From positions 1 to 32,006 of the IMG/VR virus record IMGVR_UViG_3300025647_002749: a DNA stretch of 32,006 nucleotides; one strand, given 5' to 3'. Position numbers and translations under genes: made by a program. The notes under the pieces were generated by a model. The model was not told the origin of the DNA, ran no database searches, and saw nothing but the letters and a program-made list of their open reading frames with translations. This document shows, one piece after another, positions 114-29,294 of this stretch. The number at the start of each line of letters is the position of its first letter. Within the stretch, counting starts at the first letter, position 1. This stretch comes from a virus.

Positions 114-1673
114 ATGGAATACAATGTACCTAGTCAGATTGTCAAGGAGTTAAACTTCGGGCAAGATGCAAGAGAGAAAATCATGAAAGGCGTGGATAAA
201 CTATCCATGGCAGTTAAATCCACTTTAGGAGCATCGGGAAGATGTGTAATATATGAAGACGGACTTGGTAAACCAGTTATCACTAAAGATGGTGTGACGG
301 TTGCTGAGTCCGTTATTCTATTAGACCCTATTGAGAATATTGGTGCTACACTTATTAAAGAGGCTGCAAGGAATACAGTTAGGGAAGCCGGTGATGGAAC
401 TACTACATCGACAGTTTTAGCGCAAGCAATACTGCATAAGTATTACGAAGCGTTAAAAGAAACCAAAATTTCAGAGAGGCAACTTAAAGCAGAAATTTTG
501 GAAGCAACAGATAAAGTTATCGAGTATATCGATAGCATCAAAGTAGACGTCACTGAAGATTCTATTATTGATGTAGCTTCTATTAGCTCTAATAACGATA
601 AAGTTTTAGGTGCAATTATAACTGATGTATTTAAAAGTGTTGGTAAGAACGGAGTTGTTTTAATTGAAGAGTCTAGCACAGAAAAGACTTACATAGAAGT
701 TGTTGATGGGGTTCAGTTTGATTCACCATTAAAATCTCCACATTTAATAACAGACTCTGACTTAGGGTCTTGCGAGTTAGTTAATCCATACGTGCTTATT
801 GTTTCGTCTCCAATCCCAAATATTAGGAAGATTCAAGGTGTATTAGAGTTTGTGATTAAGGCAAATAGACCACTACTTATAATAGGGCCTGTAGAGCAAC
901 AACCAATGGCGACATTAGCTGCAAACAAAGTTAAGGGTAACCTAAAGGTTAATGTAGTTGACCAACCAGGATTTGGTAAGATGAGGGATGACGTTGTTAG
1001 TGATTTAGCAATACTTACTGGAGCTAGGGTTATAAACGAAGAGCTTGGTGATGACATGGACTTAATTGCACCAGAAGATCTTGGAACGGTAGATAAGTCA
1101 ATAACAGACAGTAAGAGCACTATATTAACAATCTCTAGTACTAGCAATGACTTAACAGAAAGAATTGAGTTAGTAAAAGAGAAAATAAAGAATGAAGAAA
1201 ACCCATTCCTTAAGAAGAAGCTTGAAGAGAGAATGGCAATGCTAGCAGGAAAGGTTGGAGTTTTATATGTTGGTGCAAACTCATTAGTAGAACTGAAGGA
1301 GAAGAAGGATAGAGTAGATGACGCTGTGAGCGCAACGAAGGCCGCTTTAAGAGACGGAATAGTGCCAGGTGGTGGAGTAGCATTGAAAAATGCTTCAGAG
1401 CTCTTAGAATCGACCGGATTGGGTTATGATATATTGTTTGACGCAATCAGAGTTCCATTCGAATCAATATTGACTAACGCAGGTATGGATACCAGTTTAG
1501 ATTCTGGTGGTGTTGGTTTTGGATTTGATGTTACAACTGGAAACATTGTTAACATGATTGAGGCTGGGGTTATTGATCCGGCATTAGTAACGAAGACAGC
1601 ATTAAGAAACGCAGTATCGGTAGCAACTACAATTATATCTGCGGATTGTGTAATCAGTAATATTAGAGCATGA
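114..1673 (+). CDS. groEL: Phage-encoded chaperonin GroEL (Hsp60, group I)
   Basis: Group I chaperonin subunit, 519 residues against about 545 in bacteria, expected to form a ring that folds proteins using ATP with a GroES cap in the cytoplasm. Seen: TKDGVTVA at 57-64 (D59 matches E. coli D52), the ATP motif GDGTTT at 93-98 (D95 matches D87), VDDA at 401-404 (D403 matches the hydrolysis residue D398) and GGGVAL at 419-424. Equatorial, intermediate and apical segments align throughout, so it should be active. The Gly-Gly-Met C-terminal tail is missing; the protein ends soon after the position of E. coli residue 525. Apical positions that bind substrate and GroES in E. coli differ: Y199, Y203, F204, L234, L259, V263 and V264 become L206, H210, L211, Q241, M265, A269 and A270. 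This suggests altered client choice (inference). The start has an A/T-rich leader; groES overlaps the stop by four bases. Confidence 0.97.
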   Translation: MEYNVPSQIVKELNFGQDAREKIMKGVDKLSMAVKSTLGASGRCVIYEDGLGKPVITKDGVTVAESVILLDPIENIGATLIKEAARNTVREAGDGTTTSTVLAQAILHKYYEALKETKISERQLKAEILEATDKVIEYIDSIKVDVTEDSIIDVASISSNNDKVLGAIITDVFKSVGKNGVVLIEESSTEKTYIEVVDGVQFDSPLKSPHLITDSDLGSCELVNPYVLIVSSPIPNIRKIQGVLEFVIKANRPLLIIGPVEQQPMATLAANKVKGNLKVNVVDQPGFGKMRDDVVSDLAILTGARVINEELGDDMDLIAPEDLGTVDKSITDSKSTILTISSTSNDLTERIELVKEKIKNEENPFLKKKLEERMAMLAGKVGVLYVGANSLVELKEKKDRVDDAVSATKAALRDGIVPGGGVALKNASELLESTGLGYDILFDAIRVPFESILTNAGMDTSLDSGGVGFGFDVTTGNIVNMIEAGVIDPALVTKTALRNAVSVATTIISADCVISNIRA

Positions 1674-1930
1674 AAGGAGCATTAGGTTATTATTTAGTTA
1701 TAGATAAGATTAAGGAAGAAGAGGTTAAAACAAGTGGCCTCTTTATTCCGGAATCTCAAAATAAAGAAGTTAGATATGGTAGGGCGAAAGTTATGTCTGT
1801 TGGGGATGAGGTTAAAAATGTGTCAGTTGGTGACATCGTTAGGTACGACAAACACGCAGGCCATGGTATTGAACTTGATAGCCATCTTTATAGTGTGATT
1901 AGGATTGGTGACGTAATATACATAGAGTAA
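1670..1930 (+). CDS. groES: Phage-encoded co-chaperonin GroES (Cpn10)
   Basis: Small (86 residues) GroES-family lid protein that should cap the GroEL ring. Seen: an N-terminal beta strand (GYYLVIDKIKEE), a mobile-loop region with TSGLFIPE, where L24-F25-I26 occupy the place of the E. coli Ile-Val-Leu anchor, then GRAKVMSVG and VSVGDIVRYD, the hallmark of the family core. It ends GDVIYIE, matching the GroES C-terminal strand. Slightly shorter than bacterial GroES (about 97), with a short roof loop (KHAGHGIELD). Its ATG overlaps the groEL stop (ATGA), so the two are almost certainly translationally coupled. The order groEL then groES is the reverse of the usual bacterial groES-groEL operon, which argues against recent capture of an intact host operon. 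Confidence 0.93.
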   Translation: MKGALGYYLVIDKIKEEEVKTSGLFIPESQNKEVRYGRAKVMSVGDEVKNVSVGDIVRYDKHAGHGIELDSHLYSVIRIGDVIYIE

Positions 1931-1931
1931 T

Positions 1932-2372
1932 ATGCGTATAGATCCTTCAGACATAAAAGATGCAAAACTATTTAAGTATTATCGATTAGTTAGAAAGTGG
2001 GCTGCAAAGTCATACGGTTTAACTGAGGCTGACTTAGAGTTAATAATATATCTTGAATGCGAAGGTCAGTTCACTAGGCAAGACTTCATGAATGGGCAGT
2101 TTGCTTATTCTTGGGATAAGAATAGATGGATCAGACTTAGGAAAGCAGGTTGGATAGATATATGGAGGGAAAGGAATAGGACTACAATGAAGTATAACAT
2201 CTACTCCGTGTCGCTAAAGGCTAAGATAATGACTAATAGAATATTTAAAATACTTCTAGGGCAAGAAGATTTACCAAGGAGTGAAAGAAATGTTTTCTAT
2301 AAAGGGAAGACTTACACAGATAAAGTTTACAGTAAGGCTGTTGACTTAATGTTAAAAGATGAATCACGTTAA
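1932..2372 (+). CDS. Putative winged-helix DNA-binding protein
   Basis: 146 residues, basic. The segment from about residue 15 to 95 reads like a MarR-type winged helix: helix YYRLVRKWAAKSYGL, then TEADLELIIYLE, a recognition-helix-like RQDFMNGQFAYSWDKNRW, and an aromatic wing with RKAGWIDIW and YNIYSVSLKAK. The C-terminal part (SERNVFYKGKTYTDK) is not recognised. It follows groES by one base and lies a few genes before the large terminase. It may be a transcription regulator of the late genes or a DNA-recognising small terminase; the sequence does not decide between them. The fold call comes from pattern only; that the gene is real is very likely from operon position and codon use. Confidence 0.5.
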   Translation: MRIDPSDIKDAKLFKYYRLVRKWAAKSYGLTEADLELIIYLECEGQFTRQDFMNGQFAYSWDKNRWIRLRKAGWIDIWRERNRTTMKYNIYSVSLKAKIMTNRIFKILLGQEDLPRSERNVFYKGKTYTDKVYSKAVDLMLKDESR

Positions 2373-2388
2373 TTTAAAAATAAATAAA

Positions 2389-2637
2389 ATGATGTTAAAG
2401 ATTGAAGAACAGGAATTAAAAGGATTGCAAGAAATAGTTTCAGCGATTAACTCTATGAAGTCAAGTATTGGTGAGATGGAAGTTAGGAAGCACGAAGCTA
2501 TGCATCAGTTATTTTCTGCTGAGTCTAACCTAAGAGAGCAGCAGGAAGCGTTAAAAGGAAAGTACGGTAATGTAACAGTTAGTCTTTCTGATGGAACAAT
2601 TAAACCAGTGGAAGATGAATCTAATACGGAAGATTAG
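2389..2637 (+). CDS. Small coiled-coil protein, unknown function
   Basis: About 82 residues from the ATG at 2389; an in-frame ATG at 2359 would add ten residues and overlap the previous gene by 14 bases. I prefer 2389 because it follows an A-rich, stop-free leader (aaaataaataaa) like those of other genes here and begins after the upstream stop. The protein is almost entirely a heptad-patterned helix (KIEEQELKGLQEIVSAIN, then MEVRKHEAMHQLFSAESN), followed by a short strand-like KYGNVTVSLSDG and an acidic tail. It is probably an oligomeric accessory protein, but no family is recognised. It overlaps the next gene by 23 bases. Confidence 0.7.
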   Translation: MMLKIEEQELKGLQEIVSAINSMKSSIGEMEVRKHEAMHQLFSAESNLREQQEALKGKYGNVTVSLSDGTIKPVEDESNTED

Positions 2638-2833
2638 TATAGGAACTGACTACAAAGACAATGCGATGCATTACGCTGTTGGTCAGGAAGTGTATGGTGG
2701 GCATAGAATATGCGACATACAGGAAAAAGATGATAGGTATGTGATACTTATTGAAAAGGATGGAGAAGTTTTAACTTGGAAAGACTTTAATAAGAATATG
2801 GGAATATCAGTCGAATATAACTTGAACTATTAA
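2615..2833 (+). CDS. Small conserved-looking phage protein, unknown function
   Basis: 72 residues from the ATG at 2615; an upstream in-frame ATG at 2591 lies deeper inside the previous gene. The 2615 start is preceded by ggaag, a weak ribosome-binding match, and gives the N-terminus MNLIRKISIGTDYKDNAM. The body alternates short strands (YAVGQEVYGG, DRYVILIEKDGEVLTWKDF), suggesting a small beta-barrel or SH3-like fold (inference). The stop TAA overlaps the next ATG by one base (TAATG), indicating coupled translation with the GroES-like gene. Function is not recognisable. Confidence 0.65.
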   Translation: MNLIRKISIGTDYKDNAMHYAVGQEVYGGHRICDIQEKDDRYVILIEKDGEVLTWKDFNKNMGISVEYNLNY

Positions 2834-3450
2834 TGAAAGCAGTATTTAATTATATAATATCTCCAGTAAGCAGTAGATACAACAATAAGAAAGTTATTGA
2901 TACAGAGAATGGAGAAAAGGAGATAATATTGAATACTGAAATATTTAACCACCAGTACGTTAGTAGGAATGCTACCGTACTGGCAGTTCCCACTCAAGTA
3001 GACACACCGATAAAAGTTGGGGATGAGGTAGTCGTGCATCATAATATATTTAGACGATGGCATGATGTTAGAGGTATTGAAAGAAATAGCTCTTCATTTA
3101 TATCAGAATCAGAATACACTTGCAGTCCGGATCAGCTATTTTTATATAAAAGAGATAAGGATTGGACAGCAATGACTGGATATTCTTTTATACAGCCAGT
3201 TGAGGAAACGGATAAACTATCGACTGATAAAGAAAAAGAGCTAGTTGGTATAGTTAGATACATAGACAACAGCGACTACGAAATAGTTGCTATTGGGGAC
3301 TTAGTTGGATTTACACCGTCTTCTGAGTTTGAATTTATTGTTAATGGAGTTAGAATGTACAGAGTTTTAACTAAAGATATTTGTTTTAATTATGGAGACA
3401 ACGAAGGAAAAGAGACGGCTTATAATCCAAGCTGGGCGAAAGGCAGTTGA
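2833..3450 (+). CDS. Tandem GroES-like (double co-chaperonin-like) phage protein
   Basis: 205 residues that read as two GroES-type beta barrels in series. Domain 1 (about 4-106): a first strand NYIISPV, a polar loop with a conserved Gly (27-45), then ATVLAVP, IKVGDEVVVHHN and a late SPDQLFLYK strand. Domain 2 (about 111-187): GYSFIQPVEE, a Lys/Glu loop, LVGIVRYID, VAIGDLVGFTP and MYRVLTKDI. The core pattern VGD-V-V/F and the closing D-I strand match GroES. The C-terminus ends in YNPSWAKGS. Chloroplast Cpn20 is the known case of two fused GroES domains; a similar role as a cap or adaptor for the phage GroEL at position 114 is inference. It could instead have a GroES-derived structural role. 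It starts by one-base overlap with the upstream stop and overlaps the next gene by 59 bases. Confidence 0.6.
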   Translation: MKAVFNYIISPVSSRYNNKKVIDTENGEKEIILNTEIFNHQYVSRNATVLAVPTQVDTPIKVGDEVVVHHNIFRRWHDVRGIERNSSSFISESEYTCSPDQLFLYKRDKDWTAMTGYSFIQPVEETDKLSTDKEKELVGIVRYIDNSDYEIVAIGDLVGFTPSSEFEFIVNGVRMYRVLTKDICFNYGDNEGKETAYNPSWAKGS

Positions 3451-3676
3451 TGAATTAATAAAAGTTGCTGAAGAAAAAATAGTTACTGGAGGAGAAGATG
3501 ACGTGTCTGTAGATCGATTAAAGAATGCGGCAGCCACAAAGAAGTTAGCAATATTTGATGCATTTGAAATACTGACAAGGCTTGATGCAGAGGAGAATAT
3601 GCTGAATGATGTGGTAGTAGAAAGTAATAAGACTGAATCATTCAAGGGGTTTGCAGAAAAAAGAAAGAGGAACTAA
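3392..3676 (+). CDS. Candidate terminase small subunit (small helical protein)
   Basis: 94 residues, predicted almost all helix, ending in a basic tail (EKRKRN). It lies directly before the large terminase with a two-base gap, the usual place of the small subunit that recognises DNA for packaging. It is shorter than most small terminases (about 120-180) and I see no clear helix-turn-helix. Segments such as GRKAVDELIKVAEEKIV and RLKNAAATKKLAIFDAFEI suggest a helical oligomerisation core. The only ATG near the N-terminus is at 3392, inside the previous gene by 59 bases, and it has a local A/T-rich leader (ttttaatt). The role rests on position, not on motif; the 146-residue winged-helix protein at 1932 is an alternative candidate. 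Confidence 0.45.
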   Translation: METTKEKRRLIIQAGRKAVDELIKVAEEKIVTGGEDDVSVDRLKNAAATKKLAIFDAFEILTRLDAEENMLNDVVVESNKTESFKGFAEKRKRN

Positions 3677-3678
3677 TT

Positions 3679-5889
3679 ATGTATCAACAGACTCTATATA
3701 AAATAATTGAGCCAATACAGTTTAATCGAAAGTCTAGATTAAATAGGCTTAAGAAATGGAGTTATGGCTACCATAAAGATGATGACATTGTTGTTATTAG
3801 TAAGACTGGCACTATAGGTGACATATATGAAATATCTGGATTAAAGATAGCTATACCACCAGAACCAAAAAGTATACCAAAGGGTGATAACAAGTGGGTT
3901 GCAACTCCAGTACCGAAAGAATTAAGTCAGATAAAAAGTATATTTCAATGGAGAGACTACCCAGACTCTTTTAAGCACAAATGGGCAGAACATATAGAAA
4001 GTGAGTTTGAGAATAGGGATAATGGTGTGTGGTTTATGAATAACAACATAAAGACATACATAACAGGATCTCACTGGATGTATTTAAATCATAGCAAGAT
4101 AGATGTAGGTAAGGCTGATTATAGAGATTCAAATAGAATCTTTTATTACTTTTGGGAGGCGTGTAAAGCTGATCCAAGATGTTATGGTATGTCATACTTG
4201 AAAAACAGACGTTCTGGATTCTCAACAATGGCATCTGCTGAATTAGTATCAGAGGCAACATCAGTAAGCGATAAGCGTTTGGGTATATTATCAAAGACTG
4301 GGCCGGATGCTAAGAAAATGTTTACTGATAAGGTTGTTCCAATATCACTAAGCTACCCATTCTATTTCAAACCAATTCAAGATGGTATGGATAGACCTAA
4401 GACTGAATTAGCTTATAGAGCACCTGCTTCGAAACTTACAAAGAAATCAATAACTTCAGTTGAGGCTGTTGAAATTTTAGATGGACTTGATACAACAATT
4501 GACTGGAAGAACACTGGAGATAACTCTTATGATGGTGAAAAGCTATATAGATTGGTTCATGATGAATCCGGTAAATGGGAGAAGCCAAATAATATACTTG
4601 AGAACTGGAGGGTTACAAAGACTTGCCTTAGACTTGGTAGTAAGATTATAGGTAAATGCATGATGGGCTCTACCTCTAACTCAAAGTCAAAGGGTGGAGA
4701 TAATTTTCAAAAGCTATTTAATGACTCAAATACTTCAAAAAGAAATAAGAATGGACAGACAGCATCTGGACTGTATTCTTTATTTATACCTATGGAGTGG
4801 AACTATGAAGGCTTTATAGATGAGTTCGGTATACCTGTATTTGAGACTCCAGAAAAGGAAACGTTTGGCCCAGACGGAGAGCCTATAGAAATTGGCGTTA
4901 TAGAACACTGGGAGAATGAAGCAGAAGGATTAAAGCACGACCAGGATGCTCTAAATGAATTCTACAGACAATTCCCAAGAACAATTGAGCACGCATTTAG
5001 AGATGAAACTAAGAACAGTCTTTTTAATCTTAGTAAGATATATGCACAAATAGATTTCAATGGTGACATGAGGCATTCGTCATTAATAACTAGGGGTGGG
5101 TTTAGTTGGAAGAATGGTGTAATAGATTCTGAAGTTGAATTTACTCCAGACAAGAGTGGTAGATTTTTAGTTTCTTGGATACCACCAAAAGAATTGCAGA
5201 ATAGAGTTATAACAAAGTCGAATGGAATAAAGTATCCAGGTAATGAGCATATTGGAGCATTTGGTTGCGATAGCTATGACATATCGGGTACAGTTGGTGG
5301 AAGAGGTTCGAATGGAGCTCTACATGGATTAACGAAGTTCTCTATGGAGAATGCTCCTGCAAACCAACTTTTTCTACAATACATAGCTAGGCCTCAAACA
5401 GCGGAGATATTTTTTGAAGATGTACTAATGTCTTTAGTGTTTTATGGAATGCCAATACTTGCTGAGAATAACAAACCTAGACTTTTGTATCATATAAAAA
5501 ATAGAGGTTACAGAGGGTTTTCGATGAATAGACCGGATAAGGCTTGGAATAAATTATCAGCAACAGAAAAAGAAATTGGTGGCATACCTAACAGTAGCGA
5601 GGATATAAAGCAGGCTCACGCTTCTGCAATAGAATCTTATATTAATGATTATGTCGGACTAAGAGAAAATGGTGAATATGGCAATATGTACTTTAACGAA
5701 ACTCTAAATGATTGGGCCGCATTTGATATTAACAACAGAACTAAGTATGATGCTTCTATTAGTTCTGGATTGGCTATTATGGCTTGCAACAAAAATAGGT
5801 ACGCTCCGGTGGCTCAAAAACAAGATATTAAAGTTTCATTTGGATTTAAAAAATATGACAATTCAGGAAGTTATTCAAAATTAAAATAA
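3679..5889 (+). CDS. terL: Terminase large subunit (packaging ATPase/nuclease)
   Basis: 736 residues, longer than the typical 450-650. It is the motor that drives DNA into the prohead and cuts it. Seen: a P-loop-like segment KNRRSGFS at 175-182 (a non-classical Walker A with arginines), a Walker B-type LVHDE at 292-296, a coupling motif MGSTSN at 329-334, and a probable RNase H-type nuclease start GCDSYDIS at 529-536, whose D531 would be the first metal ligand. A segment GILSKTGPDAKKMF (202-215) follows the P-loop as in related phage terminases. The long N-terminal part (1-120) is unusual and unassigned. It is followed after three bases by portal. Family certain from the motif set and position; exact catalytic residues are my reading. 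Confidence 0.9.
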   Translation: MYQQTLYKIIEPIQFNRKSRLNRLKKWSYGYHKDDDIVVISKTGTIGDIYEISGLKIAIPPEPKSIPKGDNKWVATPVPKELSQIKSIFQWRDYPDSFKHKWAEHIESEFENRDNGVWFMNNNIKTYITGSHWMYLNHSKIDVGKADYRDSNRIFYYFWEACKADPRCYGMSYLKNRRSGFSTMASAELVSEATSVSDKRLGILSKTGPDAKKMFTDKVVPISLSYPFYFKPIQDGMDRPKTELAYRAPASKLTKKSITSVEAVEILDGLDTTIDWKNTGDNSYDGEKLYRLVHDESGKWEKPNNILENWRVTKTCLRLGSKIIGKCMMGSTSNSKSKGGDNFQKLFNDSNTSKRNKNGQTASGLYSLFIPMEWNYEGFIDEFGIPVFETPEKETFGPDGEPIEIGVIEHWENEAEGLKHDQDALNEFYRQFPRTIEHAFRDETKNSLFNLSKIYAQIDFNGDMRHSSLITRGGFSWKNGVIDSEVEFTPDKSGRFLVSWIPPKELQNRVITKSNGIKYPGNEHIGAFGCDSYDISGTVGGRGSNGALHGLTKFSMENAPANQLFLQYIARPQTAEIFFEDVLMSLVFYGMPILAENNKPRLLYHIKNRGYRGFSMNRPDKAWNKLSATEKEIGGIPNSSEDIKQAHASAIESYINDYVGLRENGEYGNMYFNETLNDWAAFDINNRTKYDASISSGLAIMACNKNRYAPVAQKQDIKVSFGFKKYDNSGSYSKLK

Positions 5890-5892
5890 TAA

Positions 5893-8310
5893 ATGGTAAC
5901 AACACCACCAAAAAGCATTTTTCCAAGTCACGCAGTTGGACACGAAGAGAAGGAGTCGTTTGATTACGGACTTCAAGTAGGTAGGGCTATAGAGTCTGAG
6001 TGGTTTAAAGATGATAGAGCCAGTTCTAGATACTTTGCTTTAAAAGATAGCTTTCATAATCTTAGACTTTACGCAAGAGGTGAGCAACCTATTCAGAAGT
6101 ATAAGGATGAGCTGTCTGTTAATGGTGATATGTCCTACCTAAATCTTGATTGGAAGCCTGTACCAATAATACCCAAATTTGTTGATATTGTAGTAAATGG
6201 TATATCAGAAAGACCTTATGCATTGAAAACATTCTGTCAAGACCCTGCGTCAATGAACAAAAGAACTCAGTACATAAAGGATATTATGATTGATATGCAA
6301 AATAAAGAAGCATTCAACATAATAAGAGAAGCTACTGGGGTTAATCCATTTGTTAATGACCCAAATGGACTTCCAGAGAATGACGAAGAGTTAGCTTTGC
6401 ATATGCAGCTTGACTACAAGGAAAGCATAGAGATAGCACAGCAAGAAGCGTTAAGTAATGTATTTGATTTAAATAAATACGAATACATAAAGAGGAGACT
6501 TGATTACGATATAACTACATTGGGTATTGGGTGCTTAAAGAACTCATTTAATACAGCGGAAGGAATAAAGATAGAGTATGTTGACCCGGTTAATATAGTT
6601 TACTCTTACACAGAATCTCCGTACTTTGATGATTTATATTACGTTGGGGAAGTTAAAAGAGTTAGTATTCCAGAATTAAAGAAATCATTCCCTCAATTAA
6701 CTCAAGAGGATGTAAAGAAGCTAGAGTCATCTTATTCTGGAGAAAGGTCTATTTACAAAACTGTTAACACAGAAGATTCTTACGACAGTAATTATGTCAA
6801 TGTTCTGTACTTTGAATATAAGACATATCAAAACCAAGTATATAAGATAAAAGAAACTACCTCTGGAGGAATTAAATCAATAAAGAAAACAGATGACTTT
6901 GATCCACCAGCAGATGATAGATCTAAATTTGAAAAAGTAGATAGATCTATAGAGGTTCTTTACTCTGGAGCAAAGATAGTTGGACTTGATATGTTATTGG
7001 CTTGGGATATGAATAAGAATATGACTAGGCCAAAGTCTGATATTACAAAGGTAAATATGAGTTACAGTATTGTAGCTCCTAGACTATATAGAGGAGTTCC
7101 TGAATCTTTAGTTGGTAGAATGGTATCTTTTGCAGATATGATTCAATTAACACACATGAAGTTACAGCAAGTTTTAAATAAGCTTGTTCCTGATGGAGTG
7201 TATTTAGATGCTGATGGTTTATCTCAAATAGATTTAGGTGATGGTACTTCATATAGCCCTCAAGAAGCATTAAATATGTATTTCCAGACAGGTAGTGTTA
7301 TCGGTAGATCTTTAACTCAAGATGGAGACTTTAATAATGCAAGAGTACCAATTCAACAATTAACATCGTCTGGTGGTAATGCTAAGATAGCTAGTCTTAT
7401 TCAGTCTTATAATTATTACTTACAAATGATTAGAGATGTTACAGGACTTAATGAGGCAAGAGATGGTAGCTCTCCAGACAAAGATGCTTTAGTTGGAGTT
7501 CAGAAGTTAGCTGCCGCAAATTCAAACACAGCAACAAGGCATATTGTTCAAGCAGGATTATATGTTACCCTAAAGATGGCTGATGGCGTTTCTCTGAGGA
7601 TATCTGATGTATTGGAGTACTCTAACACCAGAGAGTCATTTATAAACTCTCTAGGTAGATTTAATGTAGCGACTCTTGACGAGATAAGAAAGCTTCACTT
7701 ACATGATTTTGGAATATTCATTGAATTAGCTCCAGACGAAGAAGAGAAGTCTGCTCTTGAAGGTAATATACAATTAGCTTTAGGTAGAAATCAAATAGAC
7801 CTTGAGGACGCAATTGATATTAGAGAAATCAAGAATTTAAAGTTAGCTAATCAACTACTCAAGAAAAGAAGAAGAGATAAGGATAAAAGAGATAGACAAA
7901 TAGCTCAAGAGAATATGCAGATGCAAGGGCAGATAAATGCTCAGTCAGCTCAAGCTTCAGCGGAAGCAGATATGCAAAAGGAGCAAGCAATAGCTTCTAC
8001 TAAGGTTCAAGTTGAGCAAGCTTCAATGCAGTTTGCAATTCAAAAAATGGAACGTGAAGCTCAGTTAAAGAAGGAATTAATGCAATTTGAGTATGAGTTA
8101 AACATTGGTCTTGAAGAAAAGAAGATGGGTGTTATATCCGATAAAGAAAAATTCAAGGAGGATCGTAAGGACGAAAGAACAAAAATACAAGCAACTCAAC
8201 AGAGTCAATTAATAGAACAAAGAAAGGGTGGAACTCCACCAAAAAACTTCGAGTCAGCAGGATTTGATAATTTAGGTGGATTTGGATTTGAGCAATTTGA
8301 GCCTAGATAA
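5893..8310 (+). CDS. Portal protein
   Basis: 805 residues, a dodecameric head vertex ring through which DNA enters and leaves. It sits between large terminase and scaffold/capsid genes. Sequence features typical of the family: an early segment LYARGEQPIQKYKDEL and PKFVDIVVNGI (the clamp-side core), a stem-like region after YNYYLQMIRDVTGLNEARDG, and DALVGVQKLAAANSNTA, a signature seen in podoviral and crAss-like portals. Residues about 657-770 form a long coiled coil, strongly charged at first (KKRRRDKDKRDRQ), then Gln/Ala-rich; this matches the barrel or internal extension of large portals. It ends with a Gly/Phe-rich tail (GGFGFEQF). The start follows a short A-rich leader (aaaataata). Confidence 0.88.
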   Translation: MVTTPPKSIFPSHAVGHEEKESFDYGLQVGRAIESEWFKDDRASSRYFALKDSFHNLRLYARGEQPIQKYKDELSVNGDMSYLNLDWKPVPIIPKFVDIVVNGISERPYALKTFCQDPASMNKRTQYIKDIMIDMQNKEAFNIIREATGVNPFVNDPNGLPENDEELALHMQLDYKESIEIAQQEALSNVFDLNKYEYIKRRLDYDITTLGIGCLKNSFNTAEGIKIEYVDPVNIVYSYTESPYFDDLYYVGEVKRVSIPELKKSFPQLTQEDVKKLESSYSGERSIYKTVNTEDSYDSNYVNVLYFEYKTYQNQVYKIKETTSGGIKSIKKTDDFDPPADDRSKFEKVDRSIEVLYSGAKIVGLDMLLAWDMNKNMTRPKSDITKVNMSYSIVAPRLYRGVPESLVGRMVSFADMIQLTHMKLQQVLNKLVPDGVYLDADGLSQIDLGDGTSYSPQEALNMYFQTGSVIGRSLTQDGDFNNARVPIQQLTSSGGNAKIASLIQSYNYYLQMIRDVTGLNEARDGSSPDKDALVGVQKLAAANSNTATRHIVQAGLYVTLKMADGVSLRISDVLEYSNTRESFINSLGRFNVATLDEIRKLHLHDFGIFIELAPDEEEKSALEGNIQLALGRNQIDLEDAIDIREIKNLKLANQLLKKRRRDKDKRDRQIAQENMQMQGQINAQSAQASAEADMQKEQAIASTKVQVEQASMQFAIQKMEREAQLKKELMQFEYELNIGLEEKKMGVISDKEKFKEDRKDERTKIQATQQSQLIEQRKGGTPPKNFESAGFDNLGGFGFEQFEPR

Positions 8311-20051: not shown

Positions 20052-20645
20052 ATGGAAGAAATCGAGGAGCAAATAAAACTAGATCCAATAACAAAGGACG
20101 AAGCTAGAGAGCAGTTTATTCAAAAAACTAATGAACTTGGGCTAAAGCATAGATTTGATTTTGATACTACATGGGAAGCAATGGTTGATATTGAAAACAA
20201 GAGAGCATTTAGAGAGAAAATAATGAAACTTCAAGAAGATGTGGAATCTGACGAAGGCTCTTTAAAGGATGAAGCATTACACTCCTACAATCCTGTAAAA
20301 CACAATTTCGCTGATGGATGTTACATTAGAGAAATATTCAATCCGGCAGGACAACTACTAATCACAAAAATACATAAGAAAAGGCATCCATTCTTTTTAA
20401 TGAAAGGGAAGATGTCTATACTAACAGAAAATGGTATATCTACTATTGAAGCTCCATATAACGGCATTACAGAGCCTGGAACTAAGAGAGCGATATACAC
20501 ACATACGGATTGCGTTTTCATTACAGTACACGCTACAGAATTGACTGATGTCGATGAAATAGTTAATGAGGTTACTGCTACAGATTTTTCTGATGAAGAC
20601 ATTGCGTTAATAGATTTTACACAACTAAAAATTGAAGATATATGA
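20052..20645 (+). CDS. Phage cupin-domain protein
   Basis: 197 residues. A helical charged N-terminus (1-75) precedes a single cupin beta barrel at about 82-165: ITKIHKKRHPFFLMKGKMSI, EAPYNGITEPGTKRAIYTH and DCVFITVHA. Possible metal ligands are H108, H112, H151 and H160. The EPGTKRAIY segment is characteristic of cupins encoded in tail regions of many phages, whose role is unknown. The C-terminus is acidic. It overlaps the next gene by four bases (ATGA), so it belongs to the internal-protein operon. An enzymatic role is not shown; a virion structural or sugar-binding role is equally possible. Confidence 0.7.
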   Translation: MEEIEEQIKLDPITKDEAREQFIQKTNELGLKHRFDFDTTWEAMVDIENKRAFREKIMKLQEDVESDEGSLKDEALHSYNPVKHNFADGCYIREIFNPAGQLLITKIHKKRHPFFLMKGKMSILTENGISTIEAPYNGITEPGTKRAIYTHTDCVFITVHATELTDVDEIVNEVTATDFSDEDIALIDFTQLKIEDI

Positions 20646-22799: not shown

Positions 22800-25700
22800 A
22801 TGAACGAAGATAAAATACAAGAAATATATAATTTAATACCAGAAGGGTATCTTAGTGGAACAGATGAATTGAAGGAGATAATTTCTTCAGAAGGTCTTGA
22901 TGGAGCTTACAATTTAATACCAGACGGATTTTACGACAATAAAAGCGATTTTTTAAATGAATTTGAGCTGTCTTTTACGGACGGCTCTATGGAGCAGCAA
23001 GAGCAGCCTATAGAGCCTTTAAATCAGAGTGGAGAACCCTTAGTTATTTCAAAGACTGAAGATGAATTAGTTGCAGATAAGCTGTACGAAGAGGCCGTAA
23101 AAGAATACACTCAAGAGGAAGTTATAAGCTTAAAGCCTCTTGAAAGTAAAAATAAGCCACCAGAGAAAACAATAAAATCTCTTTTAAGTAAAGATGGAGT
23201 TGATATTAGTACTGCTAGAAAAATAGCAATGGCTGAATCTAATGCTCTAAAGGAAAAATCTTTATTAATAGAGCAGAAAAACGAGGACTTGTCTGCTTTT
23301 TTAGAGATGGTTAAAAAGGAGGAGTCTAAATTAATAGAGGAATACGAATTAGACCCAAGTGTTGTCAACACTGAGTTTTACAAATCTAAAGTTGCAAGCA
23401 CTCAAGAAATGTACGATTCTTACAATACTGAATTGAAAGCCAATCAAAAAGAGTATTTACTTTTTTACAATAAAAACAGGGAGATTAGTGACTACTCAAA
23501 ATTTTTAGATAAGAAACAAGAAAATATAGACCAAGCCACCAATAAAGCCACTAAGGATATAAAAATAGCTACATCTGGAATTGGTGGTTATTTAGCTCAA
23601 GAGGCGGTTGGATCTATGCTTAATTTTACAGAATCTTTTATAGTTGCAAGTACGTCAGGGTTTGTTGCTCAGGCTTTTGATGAAGGAGGGTCTGACGATT
23701 CTTTTGTTACTCCAGAGAAGATAAAATCAAAGCTGTCTGAACTGGAGTCGCTTGGGTATAGCGAATCTCAAATTGATTCGTATAAAAAGGCTATGTCTCA
23801 CAAGATAAAAACGCAAGAAAGAAATAAAGACATAAAGTCTAATCTTGTGAAATTCGGTATGGACAGAGTTGAGTCGGCAAATATCAGAACTAAAGATTGG
23901 GCTTTAACAAATAGTATAAGCAAAATAGACTCAAGTAATCCTCTAGATTATATCGCATTCGCAATAAATGCATCGGCAGAAATTGCTCCTCAATTAGTTT
24001 TAACAAAAGCAACTGGCGGCTTAGGTACGTTCGTTACCACTTCTGGATCTATGTATATAGATGCTGTTTCTAGACAAGTTGACGCGGAAATGGAAAGAAG
24101 TGGGTCTACTAGAGAGGAGGCTTTTGATGTGGTCATGTCAGACACTAAAATAAATAAGGTAGGATTAAATACTGGCGCATTAATAGTTTCAGCTTTAGAT
24201 TATGTTGGATCGTTAAAGATTCTTGGAGGAGCCGGCAAGGAGGTTCAAAAGAAACTAGTAAAAGAAATGCTTGACGATGTAGTGCTTTCTAGAACTGGAA
24301 AAATACTAAAGACAGGTAAAGAATTTGTAGAGGGCCAAATTGTTGAGTTAGGTACAGAATTAGTTCAAGAGGGTATTGAGTCTGAAGCGACATCAATGTC
24401 TATAGGTAATCAATTTGGTGAAGGACTTAAAGAGTTTACTGTTGACGAAACATTAGACTTGGTTGCAAAGGTTGCTGTTGGTACTATTGGGCCACAAATA
24501 ATTCAAGCTGTATCTAGCAATAATTTCTCAAACAATCTAATAAAATCTATAGCCAATGACTTTGAAGCTAAGACTTTCGCATTCGAGCAGATAGATTCTA
24601 GAATATTAAAAGGAGAAATAACTCAAATTCAAGCAGACCAAATAAAAGGAAGGATTGATAAAAAGATGGCCCACGTAAAGAGTTTATCTGAAATGATTTC
24701 CGATGATAATATTGAGGAGGCAATGCAGCTTCAAGATGAATGGGATTCTTTTGAAGAGCAAATATCTACAAACACCACTGGATTAAAGTCTTTATTAAAG
24801 TCAAAGCAAAAAGAAGTTCAAACTAAATTAGAGGAGTTGGCTAATTCAAAACCAGTAGATGCTGAACCTAATGTCGAGTCTTTAGGAGCAGAAGCTGCGC
24901 CATCTAAAACAAATGAAGTAGAAAAACTAAGACAGCAGGAGCAAGACGAAATGCTTGAGCAAATACCTAATTCTGAAGATTTTTTAACTGATGGTAAGGT
25001 TGATAGAGACAAGATAGATAGCGAGGAAGGTAAAGCTAAGTTTGACGAGATATACGATAGGTATGATAAATTAATAACACCTTTATTAGAGGACACTTCT
25101 TTAGAAATTGATATTCCGGAAAAATTTAACAATATAACAGAAAGGGTATCTAAAGGAGAATTGATAAATAATGTAGAGATATCTGATGCTATTGAAGAAG
25201 GATACTCTCTGCTTGAGCAGTTAGACGGAAATAATTCAGAAGAGGCTACTGTTGAAAAGTCTATTATTGAAGAAGAAATAGCAAAATTAGAAAATTATGA
25301 AAATATCACAGAGACTAAAAATGTCAAAACTACCGAAAGAAGATCAATTAAAACTCCTATTGAGTCTCCAACAAAAGCTATCGACTCAGACAAATTCTTC
25401 GAAGGAGAAGAAGTAGAGATAAATGGATTTCCAACAACATTGTCTATAAATAATGGTAGGCTCGAGGCGAACGCAAGTGATGGAGTTGTTGTTATTGATA
25501 GACCATCATTAGACGTAAAAGAGGACGGAATTTCTTTTGATGAAAGCGGAAGATTAGAATCTATAACTCTTGTAGATAGATTTGGAAGCGAAGTATTATT
25601 TAAAGGAGAAGCTGCTTTAGATTTAGCAATAAAAAATAGAGAGAATAAAATAGGTACTGTCCCGGAGGCTATGTTTGAAACAGCCTATCAAGAAATAGTT

Positions 25701-28700
25701 TCCGAAAAAACTGAAGAAGTTTCAGTAAATAGAGTTGAAAATCAAGATTTAGCGATAAATAAAATGGAGGTTGAAGAAAAGCCGACAATTAAAGACGCCA
25801 AATCAAAAGCTTTTGACAGTATAGATTCTATTGCTGAAAAATTAAAGAAAGCATTAAGTGTAGACATTCCAGGAGGAAGAAAAACACAGGGAGTAGGAGT
25901 TACTCAAAATGATATAATAGACTTAGCTTCCAGAGCTGTTAAAGCGTTAGTGGCTACTAGAATTGATGTTAAGGTAGCTATAGATAAAGTAATTTCTGAA
26001 CTAAAAAGTCAAGGCATTTTTAATGTTTTTAATGAAAAATCAATTACTGATGCACTATCTAATAAAGAAAACAAACCGAAAGCAAAGTCCGTCTACTCTG
26101 AAACTAGAGGAATGTCTGAAAGAGAATACTTCACTCAGGGATTCGAGGAGGTTTATTCTTCTTTAAGAAATAAAATATCTGAAATAAAAAATAAGTATAA
26201 AGAGGAAATAAAAAATCTAAAGGAAGATAGTAAGGAAAAGAAATTAGCAGAAAGAGAACTAATAGCTAAATTATCTTTATCTATAGAGGCAATCCTTCCT
26301 AAAGACGGAGTAGTATCTAGATCTATTGCAATACAACTATCTAAAGCTAACACAGTTTCTAGAGTTGAAGCTGTAATTGATAGATTAGAAAAGCTTGCTA
26401 CAAAAAATTATGAGAAACAGTTAAAATCTATTAAGGATAAGGCTTCTGACGATATTTTAAATAACTTACTTAAACAAAAGAACTGGACAGGAGAAAGAGA
26501 AAAAGGTAAACCAAGAAAGAAAAAGCTTACTGATGAAACTATTTCTTTATTAAAAGAAATTGCTAGCGTTTACAATGAAGCTGAATTAGAATCGATGTCA
26601 GCAGATGAGGTAGTTTCTTTGCAAAAAGAAATAATTGAACTTCTTTCAGAGTCTGAGCTAGAAATAAAGTCAATAAATTCTGCTAAGAAAAAAGTAAGGA
26701 AAGTTTTTTCTGGAAGAATTACTGAAATGATTGCAAGAAAAAATAACAAGAAGAAGCCATTGAATAACAGAGAAGATGCTGTTGACTTATTGAAATCCGG
26801 TAGCGTTGTTATTATAGATGGGGTTACATTTAACTCATTGAAAGATTTTAAATTAGCATACCCTGAAGGTACTAAAATATCTGGAGAAAGCATTTATATA
26901 CCTAGTCAACCGGGGCTGTCTATGTCTGGAATTAAGTCTAGATTATGGAGTAGATTTAGTAAGATACTGGATCTTCAAGGAATGCTAGAGACATTTATTC
27001 AAACAGCTGAAGACAAGTCGTTTATTTCTGAGCAAATGCTAAAGCCATCTTCAGATAAGTTTTATGGAAAAGATAATGACATTCAAAAGCTAGATAAAGC
27101 AAGAAGGAAATTGGTCAGCGAAACTTTAAATAAGGGTAAAGGTCTTGTTGGAGCGATTTCTAAAGTAGCTAGGCTTTACGAAAAGTCTGGAATATCGTTC
27201 ATAAACAAATTTGGAGAAAAGTCTTTAGAGACAACGAATGATAATGCAATATATCTGTACAATGCATTTAAGCAATTAGATGGAGTAGAGAAATTTATAG
27301 GCTCAGGATATTCTCTAAAAGAAGTATCTGCTGTAATTGATTACATAAATTCAAATCAAGATTTAAAAGCTTATGCGGATGGTTTGAATTCGATATACTC
27401 AGAGTACTTACCATCGATAAATGAATCTCTAGTCAGCAATGGATTTGAAAGTATAGCTGAAGCAACAACAAAATCAAAAGAGGACTTAGCTAAAAAGAAT
27501 GGAGAGGAGTTTGCTAATGACTACTACGAAATATTATCTAAGATATACGGTGGAGAGCAGAATATCCCTGCAATAGAAAGATACTCGCCAATAAGTGTAT
27601 CTAGTAAGCAAATCGATAGTATGCAGAATACGAATATATTTGATTCAAAAGCCTTTAATATATCAGCATTTGCTCCAAATGTTTTTGAAAGGTCTAAGGG
27701 TGGAACATTAAATATAAGAAGTAGCACATCTGTATTTAATAGCTACTCAGACTCCATGGCTAATATGGTTCACTCTTTAGATTTGCTAAAGAAGTTTCAG
27801 TCTTTTATGACTACTGAAAATAGAAGACTTATTGTAGATAATTATGGGCAGCAATTTTATCAGTCAATAGAAAACTCTATGAATGATATCATTTATGGAA
27901 AAGCTAAGTCAACAATGTCTGATGCGGAAAGCTATAGCAGTATGAAGCAGTGGTTAAATAACGCAAATGCTTCGGTGATGTTCTTAAATTTTAAGTCCGC
28001 AGCAACTCAGCTTTTATCAGCAACAAACTTTGCTTTAGAGTCAGATATAAGCTTTTCAGACTATATGAATAATGCTTTTAATTACTCCTCGAAAGAAATG
28101 GTAACAGCTAGAGAGGAGTTATCTGAAGCTTTAGCGATAGAATATCGTGGAGATAGGAATGCATCTAGTATTGAAATAGATGCATTAAAAAATTCTGAGT
28201 TTGGAGATAAAGATGTCACTCAAAATGCAAGTCACTTAATATCAAGTGTTCTTTCTAAGGGTTATTACTTCACAAGCAAGGCCGATGTATTTGCGATAAA
28301 GCTAGGAGGAGCTCCTTACTACATGGCTAAGAGGAATGAATTTTATGCTGAAAATATAGCTTCCGGAATGGAAAAGACAGAAGCTTACAAAGATGCAAAA
28401 GATAGAGCGCTAAAGAAGACCTATGAGGTAGCAAACAAAACACAACAGTCATCCAATTTAGATAGAGTTAGTGCGGAGCAAAAAGACCCTTTATCAAGAC
28501 TTGTACTTACCTTTGGTACTGTATCTATGCAATATAATAGAGAGATGATATCGGCAGCGAGAGACATAAGAAATGGTAGAGGCGACTTGTCTAATAATTT
28601 AGCTAAGATAGTTTACTATGGCACAATTCAAAATGTTATATTCCAAACAATATCTGCTGCAATGGGAGCTATAGGTGGAGAAGATGATGAAGTGAAAGGC

Positions 28701-29294
28701 GCAACTATAATCAATAGATCCATTGATTCATTATTGAAGGGTTTTGGTGTTTATGGAGTAGCAGCATCAGCAGCAAAGAATGGGTTGTATGACTTTTACT
28801 CCTATGTAAAAAGAAAGCAAAACGAAAATGGAGAATTAAGTAACGCAGACAAGAAAGCAATAGAAGAGCTTACAGATATTGATTTTAATAAAAAGACATA
28901 TAAGGAGCCACAGAAAGTTGTGTTAAACACAATTTCATCTATAAGCCCAGCAATAGGAGGAAAAACTAAACAGGCTGTAGGTTTGTTTTATCAAGCAGGA
29001 GATGGAGAGTACACAAAAGCTGTATTAAATTCAATAAATTTTGCTGCAAATGTTCCAGCAGATAGACTTTTAGATTTAACGGATGCATTTAATGAAGATT
29101 TATCTGGATTCCATAGATTAGCTAGAATAACTAACATTATGAAAAACTACGAAGTTGAGAAGAATTTACAGAAAAAAGAAAAATCAAAAACTTCCGGTAG
29201 AAAAACCTCTGGAAGAGAAACTTCTGGAAGGGAGGTATCGTCAGGTAGAGACGCTAGTGGAAGAGAAGTATCATCAGGCAGAAATACTCAATAA
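22800..29294 (+). CDS. Giant internal virion / polyvalent ejection protein
   Basis: 2164 residues. The N-terminus has two 27-residue-spaced repeats (YNLIPEGY at 10-17, YNLIPDGF at 37-44). A helix-rich region follows, with a hydrophobic Gly/Ala part at about 260-293 (EAVGSMLNFTESFIVASTSG). Residues about 1000-1330 are Lys/Glu coiled coil. The C-terminal quarter contains SVMFLNFKSAATQLLS (about 1721-1740), DPLSRLVLTFGTVSMQYN (about 1896-1913) and a hydrophobic segment YYGTIQNVIFQTISAAMGAI (about 1938-1960), resembling the PLxRFG/LPD38-type region of large polyvalent proteins (recalled, not searched). The last 34 residues are Ser-Gly-Arg repeats. No lysozyme or peptidase motif is evident. Likely ejected with DNA, like T7 gp16. 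Confidence 0.7.
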   Translation: MNEDKIQEIYNLIPEGYLSGTDELKEIISSEGLDGAYNLIPDGFYDNKSDFLNEFELSFTDGSMEQQEQPIEPLNQSGEPLVISKTEDELVADKLYEEAVKEYTQEEVISLKPLESKNKPPEKTIKSLLSKDGVDISTARKIAMAESNALKEKSLLIEQKNEDLSAFLEMVKKEESKLIEEYELDPSVVNTEFYKSKVASTQEMYDSYNTELKANQKEYLLFYNKNREISDYSKFLDKKQENIDQATNKATKDIKIATSGIGGYLAQEAVGSMLNFTESFIVASTSGFVAQAFDEGGSDDSFVTPEKIKSKLSELESLGYSESQIDSYKKAMSHKIKTQERNKDIKSNLVKFGMDRVESANIRTKDWALTNSISKIDSSNPLDYIAFAINASAEIAPQLVLTKATGGLGTFVTTSGSMYIDAVSRQVDAEMERSGSTREEAFDVVMSDTKINKVGLNTGALIVSALDYVGSLKILGGAGKEVQKKLVKEMLDDVVLSRTGKILKTGKEFVEGQIVELGTELVQEGIESEATSMSIGNQFGEGLKEFTVDETLDLVAKVAVGTIGPQIIQAVSSNNFSNNLIKSIANDFEAKTFAFEQIDSRILKGEITQIQADQIKGRIDKKMAHVKSLSEMISDDNIEEAMQLQDEWDSFEEQISTNTTGLKSLLKSKQKEVQTKLEELANSKPVDAEPNVESLGAEAAPSKTNEVEKLRQQEQDEMLEQIPNSEDFLTDGKVDRDKIDSEEGKAKFDEIYDRYDKLITPLLEDTSLEIDIPEKFNNITERVSKGELINNVEISDAIEEGYSLLEQLDGNNSEEATVEKSIIEEEIAKLENYENITETKNVKTTERRSIKTPIESPTKAIDSDKFFEGEEVEINGFPTTLSINNGRLEANASDGVVVIDRPSLDVKEDGISFDESGRLESITLVDRFGSEVLFKGEAALDLAIKNRENKIGTVPEAMFETAYQEIVSEKTEEVSVNRVENQDLAINKMEVEEKPTIKDAKSKAFDSIDSIAEKLKKALSVDIPGGRKTQGVGVTQNDIIDLASRAVKALVATRIDVKVAIDKVISELKSQGIFNVFNEKSITDALSNKENKPKAKSVYSETRGMSEREYFTQGFEEVYSSLRNKISEIKNKYKEEIKNLKEDSKEKKLAERELIAKLSLSIEAILPKDGVVSRSIAIQLSKANTVSRVEAVIDRLEKLATKNYEKQLKSIKDKASDDILNNLLKQKNWTGEREKGKPRKKKLTDETISLLKEIASVYNEAELESMSADEVVSLQKEIIELLSESELEIKSINSAKKKVRKVFSGRITEMIARKNNKKKPLNNREDAVDLLKSGSVVIIDGVTFNSLKDFKLAYPEGTKISGESIYIPSQPGLSMSGIKSRLWSRFSKILDLQGMLETFIQTAEDKSFISEQMLKPSSDKFYGKDNDIQKLDKARRKLVSETLNKGKGLVGAISKVARLYEKSGISFINKFGEKSLETTNDNAIYLYNAFKQLDGVEKFIGSGYSLKEVSAVIDYINSNQDLKAYADGLNSIYSEYLPSINESLVSNGFESIAEATTKSKEDLAKKNGEEFANDYYEILSKIYGGEQNIPAIERYSPISVSSKQIDSMQNTNIFDSKAFNISAFAPNVFERSKGGTLNIRSSTSVFNSYSDSMANMVHSLDLLKKFQSFMTTENRRLIVDNYGQQFYQSIENSMNDIIYGKAKSTMSDAESYSSMKQWLNNANASVMFLNFKSAATQLLSATNFALESDISFSDYMNNAFNYSSKEMVTAREELSEALAIEYRGDRNASSIEIDALKNSEFGDKDVTQNASHLISSVLSKGYYFTSKADVFAIKLGGAPYYMAKRNEFYAENIASGMEKTEAYKDAKDRALKKTYEVANKTQQSSNLDRVSAEQKDPLSRLVLTFGTVSMQYNREMISAARDIRNGRGDLSNNLAKIVYYGTIQNVIFQTISAAMGAIGGEDDEVKGATIINRSIDSLLKGFGVYGVAASAAKNGLYDFYSYVKRKQNENGELSNADKKAIEELTDIDFNKKTYKEPQKVVLNTISSISPAIGGKTKQAVGLFYQAGDGEYTKAVLNSINFAANVPADRLLDLTDAFNEDLSGFHRLARITNIMKNYEVEKNLQKKEKSKTSGRKTSGRETSGREVSSGRDASGREVSSGRNTQ
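22827..22961 (+). repeat. Two N-terminal YNLIP(E/D)G repeats of the giant protein
   Basis: TATAATTTAATACCAGAAGG at 22827 and TACAATTTAATACCAGACGG at 22908 are 81 bp (27 codons) apart and nearly identical. They encode YNLIPEGY and YNLIPDGF, each followed by an acidic helix. A short duplicated docking motif is likely. Confidence 0.6.
29190..29291 (+). repeat. Ser-Gly-Arg repeat tail of the giant protein
   Basis: 34 codons encode six SGR units (TSGRK, TSGRE, TSGREV, SSGRDA, SGREV, SSGRN) and end the protein. The Ser, Gly and Arg codons vary (tccggtaga, tctggaaga, tctggaagg, tcaggtaga, agtggaaga, tcaggcaga). The protein motif is therefore kept although the DNA has diverged. Confidence 0.8.

Follow-up and report, generated by a model that had tools for sequence, protein, structure and literature searches.

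Chaperonin lids in which two GroES domains are fused in one chain have been considered specific to plant-lineage eukaryotes, and both domains of that protein, Cpn20, retain a mobile loop (PMC3542282, 2013). Cpn20 is known to form hetero-oligomers with Cpn10 that contain seven domains (PMC3542282, PMC5780408). Phages also encode chaperonin components: T4 makes the co-chaperonin gp31, and the GroEL homologs of phages EL and OBP reportedly function with no co-chaperonin (PMC5934643, PMC7185714). The single-ring GroEL called SR1 carries the changes R452E/E461A/S463A/V464A (PMC5653362), and single-ring GroEL is functional with lids in which two or three of the seven loops have been disabled (PMC5575113). 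Here, we analyze a phage locus that encodes a GroEL, a single-domain GroES, and a 205-aa protein, the tandem protein, with two predicted GroES barrels.

The window, by which we mean the whole stretch of DNA analyzed, is a 32-kb IMG/VR phage record, and the genes of the block lie head to tail on the plus strand. A sequence-only reading had proposed a GroEL, a GroES, and a two-core protein, and the observation holds at the stated coordinates, with three open reading frames (ORFs) at exactly 114 to 1673 (519 aa), 1670 to 1930 (86 aa), and 2833 to 3450 (205 aa), with support from Pfam, phrog families, and AlphaFold. GroEL was recognized by PF00118 (E 2e-52) and phrog_5725 (E 2e-134). GroES, the start of which overlaps the GroEL stop by 4 nt, was recognized by PF00166 (E 5e-10, 39.7 bits against a Pfam cutoff of 21.1), and a GroES-type mobile loop, SGLFIP, is visible in the alignment. 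Two clade-conserved ORFs follow: a 146-aa ORF between GroES and the packaging block (1932 to 2372), which weakly matches a phage DNA-binding family (E 0.003) and might regulate late genes, and a 92-aa ORF (2359 to 2637). An 80-aa ORF (2591 to 2833) lies directly 5' of the tandem gene here and in most relatives, including Panino, elemo, and ctfjg026, and, as relatives are about 73 aa long, it may really begin at an internal ATG near 2615. Downstream, a 94-aa ORF (3392 to 3676) overlaps the 3' end of the tandem gene and stops 2 nt before the gene for the terminase large subunit (3679 to 5889; phrog_6681, E 1e-162), which is followed by a portal-like ORF (5893 to 8310) whose relatives are annotated as portal. 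Thus, the block indeed sits just upstream of packaging genes, as had been claimed. By position, the 94-aa ORF is a candidate small terminase subunit, and phi18:3 gp097 (L137, 42071 to 42370), also a candidate, is a small protein in the same place between tandem and terminase, such that both lineages have one. Farther downstream, a 2,164-aa ORF (22800 to 29294) with no Pfam match follows a tail-fiber-like ORF (20052 to 20645).

How the tandem protein is related to GroES was seen mainly by structure. No Pfam family matched it and the curated cutoff of PF00166 was not reached, whereas phrog_13932 ("co-chaperonin GroES") aligned with both domains (E 5e-15, residues 1 to 183 of 205 on profile positions 1 to 195). 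Searching PDB sequences with the protein or with a profile of 24 sequences brought up nothing relevant, and fold comparison alone succeeded. An AlphaFold model built from 24 relatives (pLDDT 85, pTM 0.76) had as its best full-length PDB match Cpn20, chain R of the Chlamydomonas complex 7EKQ (Foldseek 4e-5), and the superposition covered both domains at once (VIA Z 10.1, 156 residues, 3.5 Å, model residues 1 to 188). The likeness to chloroplast Cpn20 that the sequence-only reading had noted was therefore borne out by the nearest solved structure. Domain 1 spans residues 1 to about 108, domain 2 about 109 to 188, and a conserved tail (YNPSWA) 189 to 205. Domain 2 matched GroES chains at Z 8 to 9.4 and the cellular GroES profile at an hhalign probability of 95% (E 4e-8), whereas controls, column-shuffled or reversed, stayed below 2%. 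As domain 1 can be masked by domain 2 in fold comparison, it was also folded separately (pLDDT 88), and its first 16 VIA rows were all Cpn10/GroES chains (Z 6.0 to 7.8), even though profiles alone did not recognize it as GroES (hhalign 8% and 3%). Each barrel also matched 1g31 and 2cgt (Z of about 7). We conclude that both halves are predicted GroES barrels, since the full-length model and domain 1 alone match GroES folds, and the structure prediction on which the earlier claim had been staked thus came out in its favor. The joint superposition on Cpn20 weakly suggests that the two domains would lie side by side in a ring, a geometry beyond the reach of monomer models. Two further ideas were discarded. 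Recent duplication as the origin of the two domains is not supported, as their profiles share no similarity (hhalign 1.7%), and the idea that phages enlarged the cage through a smaller roof hairpin fails because the roof is already short in the GroES of flavobacterial hosts.

The two domains differ in the loop by which GroES would bind its ring. The mobile loop of GroES has an IVL triplet. In domain 1, a putative GroEL-binding loop (residues 31 to 46, IILNTEIFNHQYVSRN; 2923 to 2970, plus strand) is among the best-conserved stretches in 21 nonredundant members of the window's clade (consensus LILNTEIFNHQYVNRE; 83% majority-conserved versus 70% for the whole protein), and its residues 31 to 33, likened to that triplet, are hydrophobic in 95 to 100% of the sequences. 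At the mobile-loop position of domain 2 (residues 122 to 138; 3196 to 3246, plus strand), the same clade has a shortened and variable stretch (61% majority-conserved) without a hydrophobic triplet. To judge from the alignment, domain 2 has lost its mobile loop in this clade. A canonical-looking domain 2 loop is still present in the relatives from L097 (GSIIVPNSGETHKG) and phi18:3 (SLIYIPEDNKEK), both without a detected GroEL, an association of two cases that is only suggestive. Moreover, the Pfam Cpn10 model accepts domain 2 from three relatives, those of phi38:1, L097, and phi18:3.

At least 596 IMG/VR stretches encode a tandem relative. So do six phages that have names (phi38:1, Calle, phi18:3, Panino, elemo, and ctfjg026), each with the gene just before terminase. 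Detected genes of the block lie on one strand in 80 of 80 kept IMG/VR loci, with the tandem gene just before the 94-aa ORF and terminase, and from the 80-aa ORF to terminase the median gaps are 3 nt or overlaps. As in phrog_13932, the window gene is upstream of terminase with at most one small ORF between. A single GroES accompanies the tandem in six of the six named phages and GroEL in five; phi18:3 has GroES and tandem without GroEL. In those five, GroEL and the single GroES lie elsewhere in the genome, and the distance from GroEL to the tandem gene, 2.9 to 5.8 kb in 19 loci, is greater. Also, a 72.8-kb contig, possibly incomplete (G050), has a tandem without a detected GroEL. Thus, the tandem is not tied to the phage ring, as it occurs without GroEL in phi18:3 and without a detected one in G050 and adjoins terminase instead. 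Exact co-occurrence is not countable in IMG/VR, where contigs without GroEL are mostly fragments, and no match turned up when viral contigs were scanned with the tandem of Panino. We conclude that the tandem is a recurrent gene in a common marine phage group that infects Flavobacteria, with phi38:1 and Calle in the Pervagoviridae and phi18:3 in the Pachyviridae. The sequence-only reading was thus right about the three proteins and the tandem fold but overstated the rarity of the set in this phage neighborhood.

Parts of the set have been noticed before. "Chaperonin cpn10" is listed among Pervagoviridae core proteins (PMC8776804), GroEL and GroES are reported for Panino (PMC11590407), and phage relatives of the tandem are already annotated "co-chaperonin GroES" or "chaperonin cpn10." The cpn10 annotation is therefore known, but our search, which did not extend to the viral chaperonin survey of Marine et al. 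2017, found no paper describing the tandem architecture in phages. We note two neighboring observations. The crAss-like phage phi14:2, which has its own GroEL, encodes a tentatively GroES-like single-domain protein two genes before terminase (gp093; L139, 42263 to 42652; hhalign 70% on 21 columns only, weak BFVD fold match), and its gp103, which adjoins GroEL, is not GroES-like. A Flavobacteriaceae metagenome-assembled genome (G009) contains three extra phage-like GroES/GroEL copies (L105, L106, L107) besides its own, which suggests that several such phages were binned with the host.

The phage GroEL is altered where rings and lids meet. Aligned with E. coli GroEL as the reference (39% identity), it keeps the residues for ATP binding and hydrolysis, D52, GDGTTT, D87, and D398, the three aspartates being present in all clade members that cover them. 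The double-ring contact residues K105, A109, R452, E461, and V464 are not retained: among 16 clade GroELs, R452 occurs in none, E461 in about 19%, K105 and A109 in about 10%, and V464 in 44%. The same residues are near invariant in 28 to 30 GroELs of Flavobacteriales hosts. Mean retention in the 16 sequences was 0.16 at inter-ring versus 0.55 at equatorial positions. The comparison draws on a single alignment, its permutation support is modest (P of about 0.02), and the protein has diverged widely elsewhere too. The window GroEL has Glu at 452, one of the SR1 changes. Moreover, the C-terminal GGM tail and the E386-R197 pair are lost in the clade, and the apical face that binds lid and substrate is consistently changed, with Y203 to H and L234 to Q in 16 of 16. 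Such losses are seen in the window protein (114 to 1673) and in L018, L030, L035, L044, L049, L056, and L059. The lost inter-ring contacts suggest that the phage-clade GroEL is a single-ring chaperonin, a prediction from residues. That the ring protein is made is clear for phi38:1, as its GroEL was detected by mass spectrometry in infected cells (PMC13288928); the same paper counts it as one of the methylated proteins that are maintained in free virions. In L055, GroEL and GroES read as a single ORF (185 to 1909), but the N terminus of GroES and the start of its mobile loop are missing, and the apparent fusion is probably a deletion or an assembly error.

How might these parts work together? 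Computation and modeling supply the double fold, its conservation beside terminase, the co-occurring single GroES, the one conserved loop, and the altered GroEL, and from these we infer that the 205-aa protein serves as a lid, a phage co-chaperonin with two GroES barrels in one chain. The reading we favor, though we rate it somewhat short of an even chance, is that tandem and single GroES form a mixed lid, poor in loops, on a ring made by the phage, perhaps a single ring, for late virion proteins. The two proteins would sit side by side in one seven-domain lid, for example three tandems and one single GroES (3 × 2 + 1). That lid would close the ring of the phage's own GroEL or, where the phage lacks one as phi18:3 does, that of the host, and the closed ring would let late virion proteins fold. 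Because domain 2 has lost its mobile loop in the window's clade, its positions would be silent, leaving about four working loops out of seven to grip the ring. Such a weakened lid might suit a ring working singly, as suggested by the lost inter-ring contacts. A precedent for a mixed lid is 7EKQ, in which one Cpn11, one Cpn23, and two Cpn20 chains make seven domains by count. For a lid with silent loops, the precedent is the single-ring GroEL that tolerates two or three disabled ones (PMC5575113), an attractive fit to this reading.

The strongest rival to the mixed lid, although in our estimate unlikely, is that the GroES-fold protein is no lid but a factor dedicated to terminase or portal, in assembly or packaging, as the tandem gene keeps company with terminase rather than with GroEL. 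The invariable position before the 94-aa ORF and terminase, the same in IMG/VR loci and named phages, fits such a factor, as do the occurrence of the tandem without a phage GroEL and, tentatively, gp093 of phi14:2. A packaging factor, however, would not account for a conserved GroES-type hydrophobic loop in domain 1, for canonical mobile loops that persist in domain 2 of L097 and phi18:3, or for the co-occurring single GroES. Moreover, the structural genes that neighbor the tandem in phi18:3 are annotated as detected by tandem mass spectrometry (MS/MS) of virions and the tandem is not, and thus it is probably not a virion part.

A tandem that makes a lid by itself, for phage or host GroEL, with the single GroES serving separately, also seems improbable. 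It might form an eight-domain tetramer, as reported for plant Cpn20, or a heptamer in which a tier of domain 1 binds the ring and domain 2, stacked on it, enlarges the cage. Tetramers are known for Arabidopsis Cpn21, and Cpn20 is functional as a homo-oligomer (PMC5780408, PMC3542282); moreover, a hydrophobic loop conserved in domain 1 only, as in the window's clade, is expected if domain 1 alone binds the ring. A self-sufficient lid would nevertheless make superfluous the single GroES of every named tandem phage, and two barrels that superpose together on a ring-forming Cpn20 chain fit a side-by-side arrangement better than the stacked form. Finally, a cap for some other ring, such as the ClpP protease of the host, or a means of tying up host GroEL and redirecting it is a very improbable role for the tandem. 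Its best structural match does come from the ClpP complex of Chlamydomonas, where it is the Cpn20 chain, but that match reflects tandem architecture, and the window annotation showed no link to Clp by sequence or by genomic context.

We speculate that the mixed lid could go further and be a natural asymmetric chaperonin, in which a single phage GroEL ring would carry a lid of three tandems and one GroES, domain 2 would be a silent spacer, four loops would grip, and the lid would be released without a second ring. The whole of that combination is a long shot. If true, the engineered single-ring system of PMC5575113 would have a natural counterpart, and the asymmetric 3+1 lid would answer the Cpn20 symmetry puzzle outside plastids. 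If the tandem is a lid at all, these phages offer a small bacterial system in which to study how a sevenfold ring is served by GroES domains that come in even numbers, and how a chaperonin ring can work alone. There is also a hint that the late genes of a very common group of marine phages include a co-chaperonin. Whatever its role, a fused double GroES that was called plant-lineage specific (PMC3542282) is a recurrent gene of flavobacterial phages.

Among known systems, the nearest are the named members of phrog_13932 (phi18:3 gp096, phi38:1 gp089, and those of Calle, elemo, and Panino), full-length homologs with two domains and the same place before terminase. Identity to the window protein is only about 27 to 35%, and the window protein differs in its added, conserved YNPSWA tail and, from the L097 and phi18:3 relatives, in the lost mobile loop of domain 2. 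Like T4 gp31, the tandem is a phage-encoded protein of the GroES co-chaperonin fold, but gp31 has a single domain and uses host GroEL. The EL and OBP chaperonins resemble the window GroEL in being phage homologs of GroEL that are single rings in at least part of their cycle, but the window GroEL is far closer to bacterial GroEL and is accompanied by two lids. The engineered GroEL-SR with GroES7 (PMC5575113) has the pairing predicted here, a ring without inter-ring contacts and a partly silent lid, except that it is a laboratory construct with seven GroES units on one chain. In architecture, the tandem is most like chloroplast and apicoplast Cpn20 (Cpn21, Cpn23), with two head-to-tail GroES-like domains in about 200 aa of one chain according to its predicted structure, and just as chloroplast Cpn20 works beside single-domain Cpn10, the tandem co-occurs with a single GroES. 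Unlike Cpn20, however, it is viral, has no detectable sequence relation to the plastid protein, and conserves a mobile loop in one of its two domains rather than in both.
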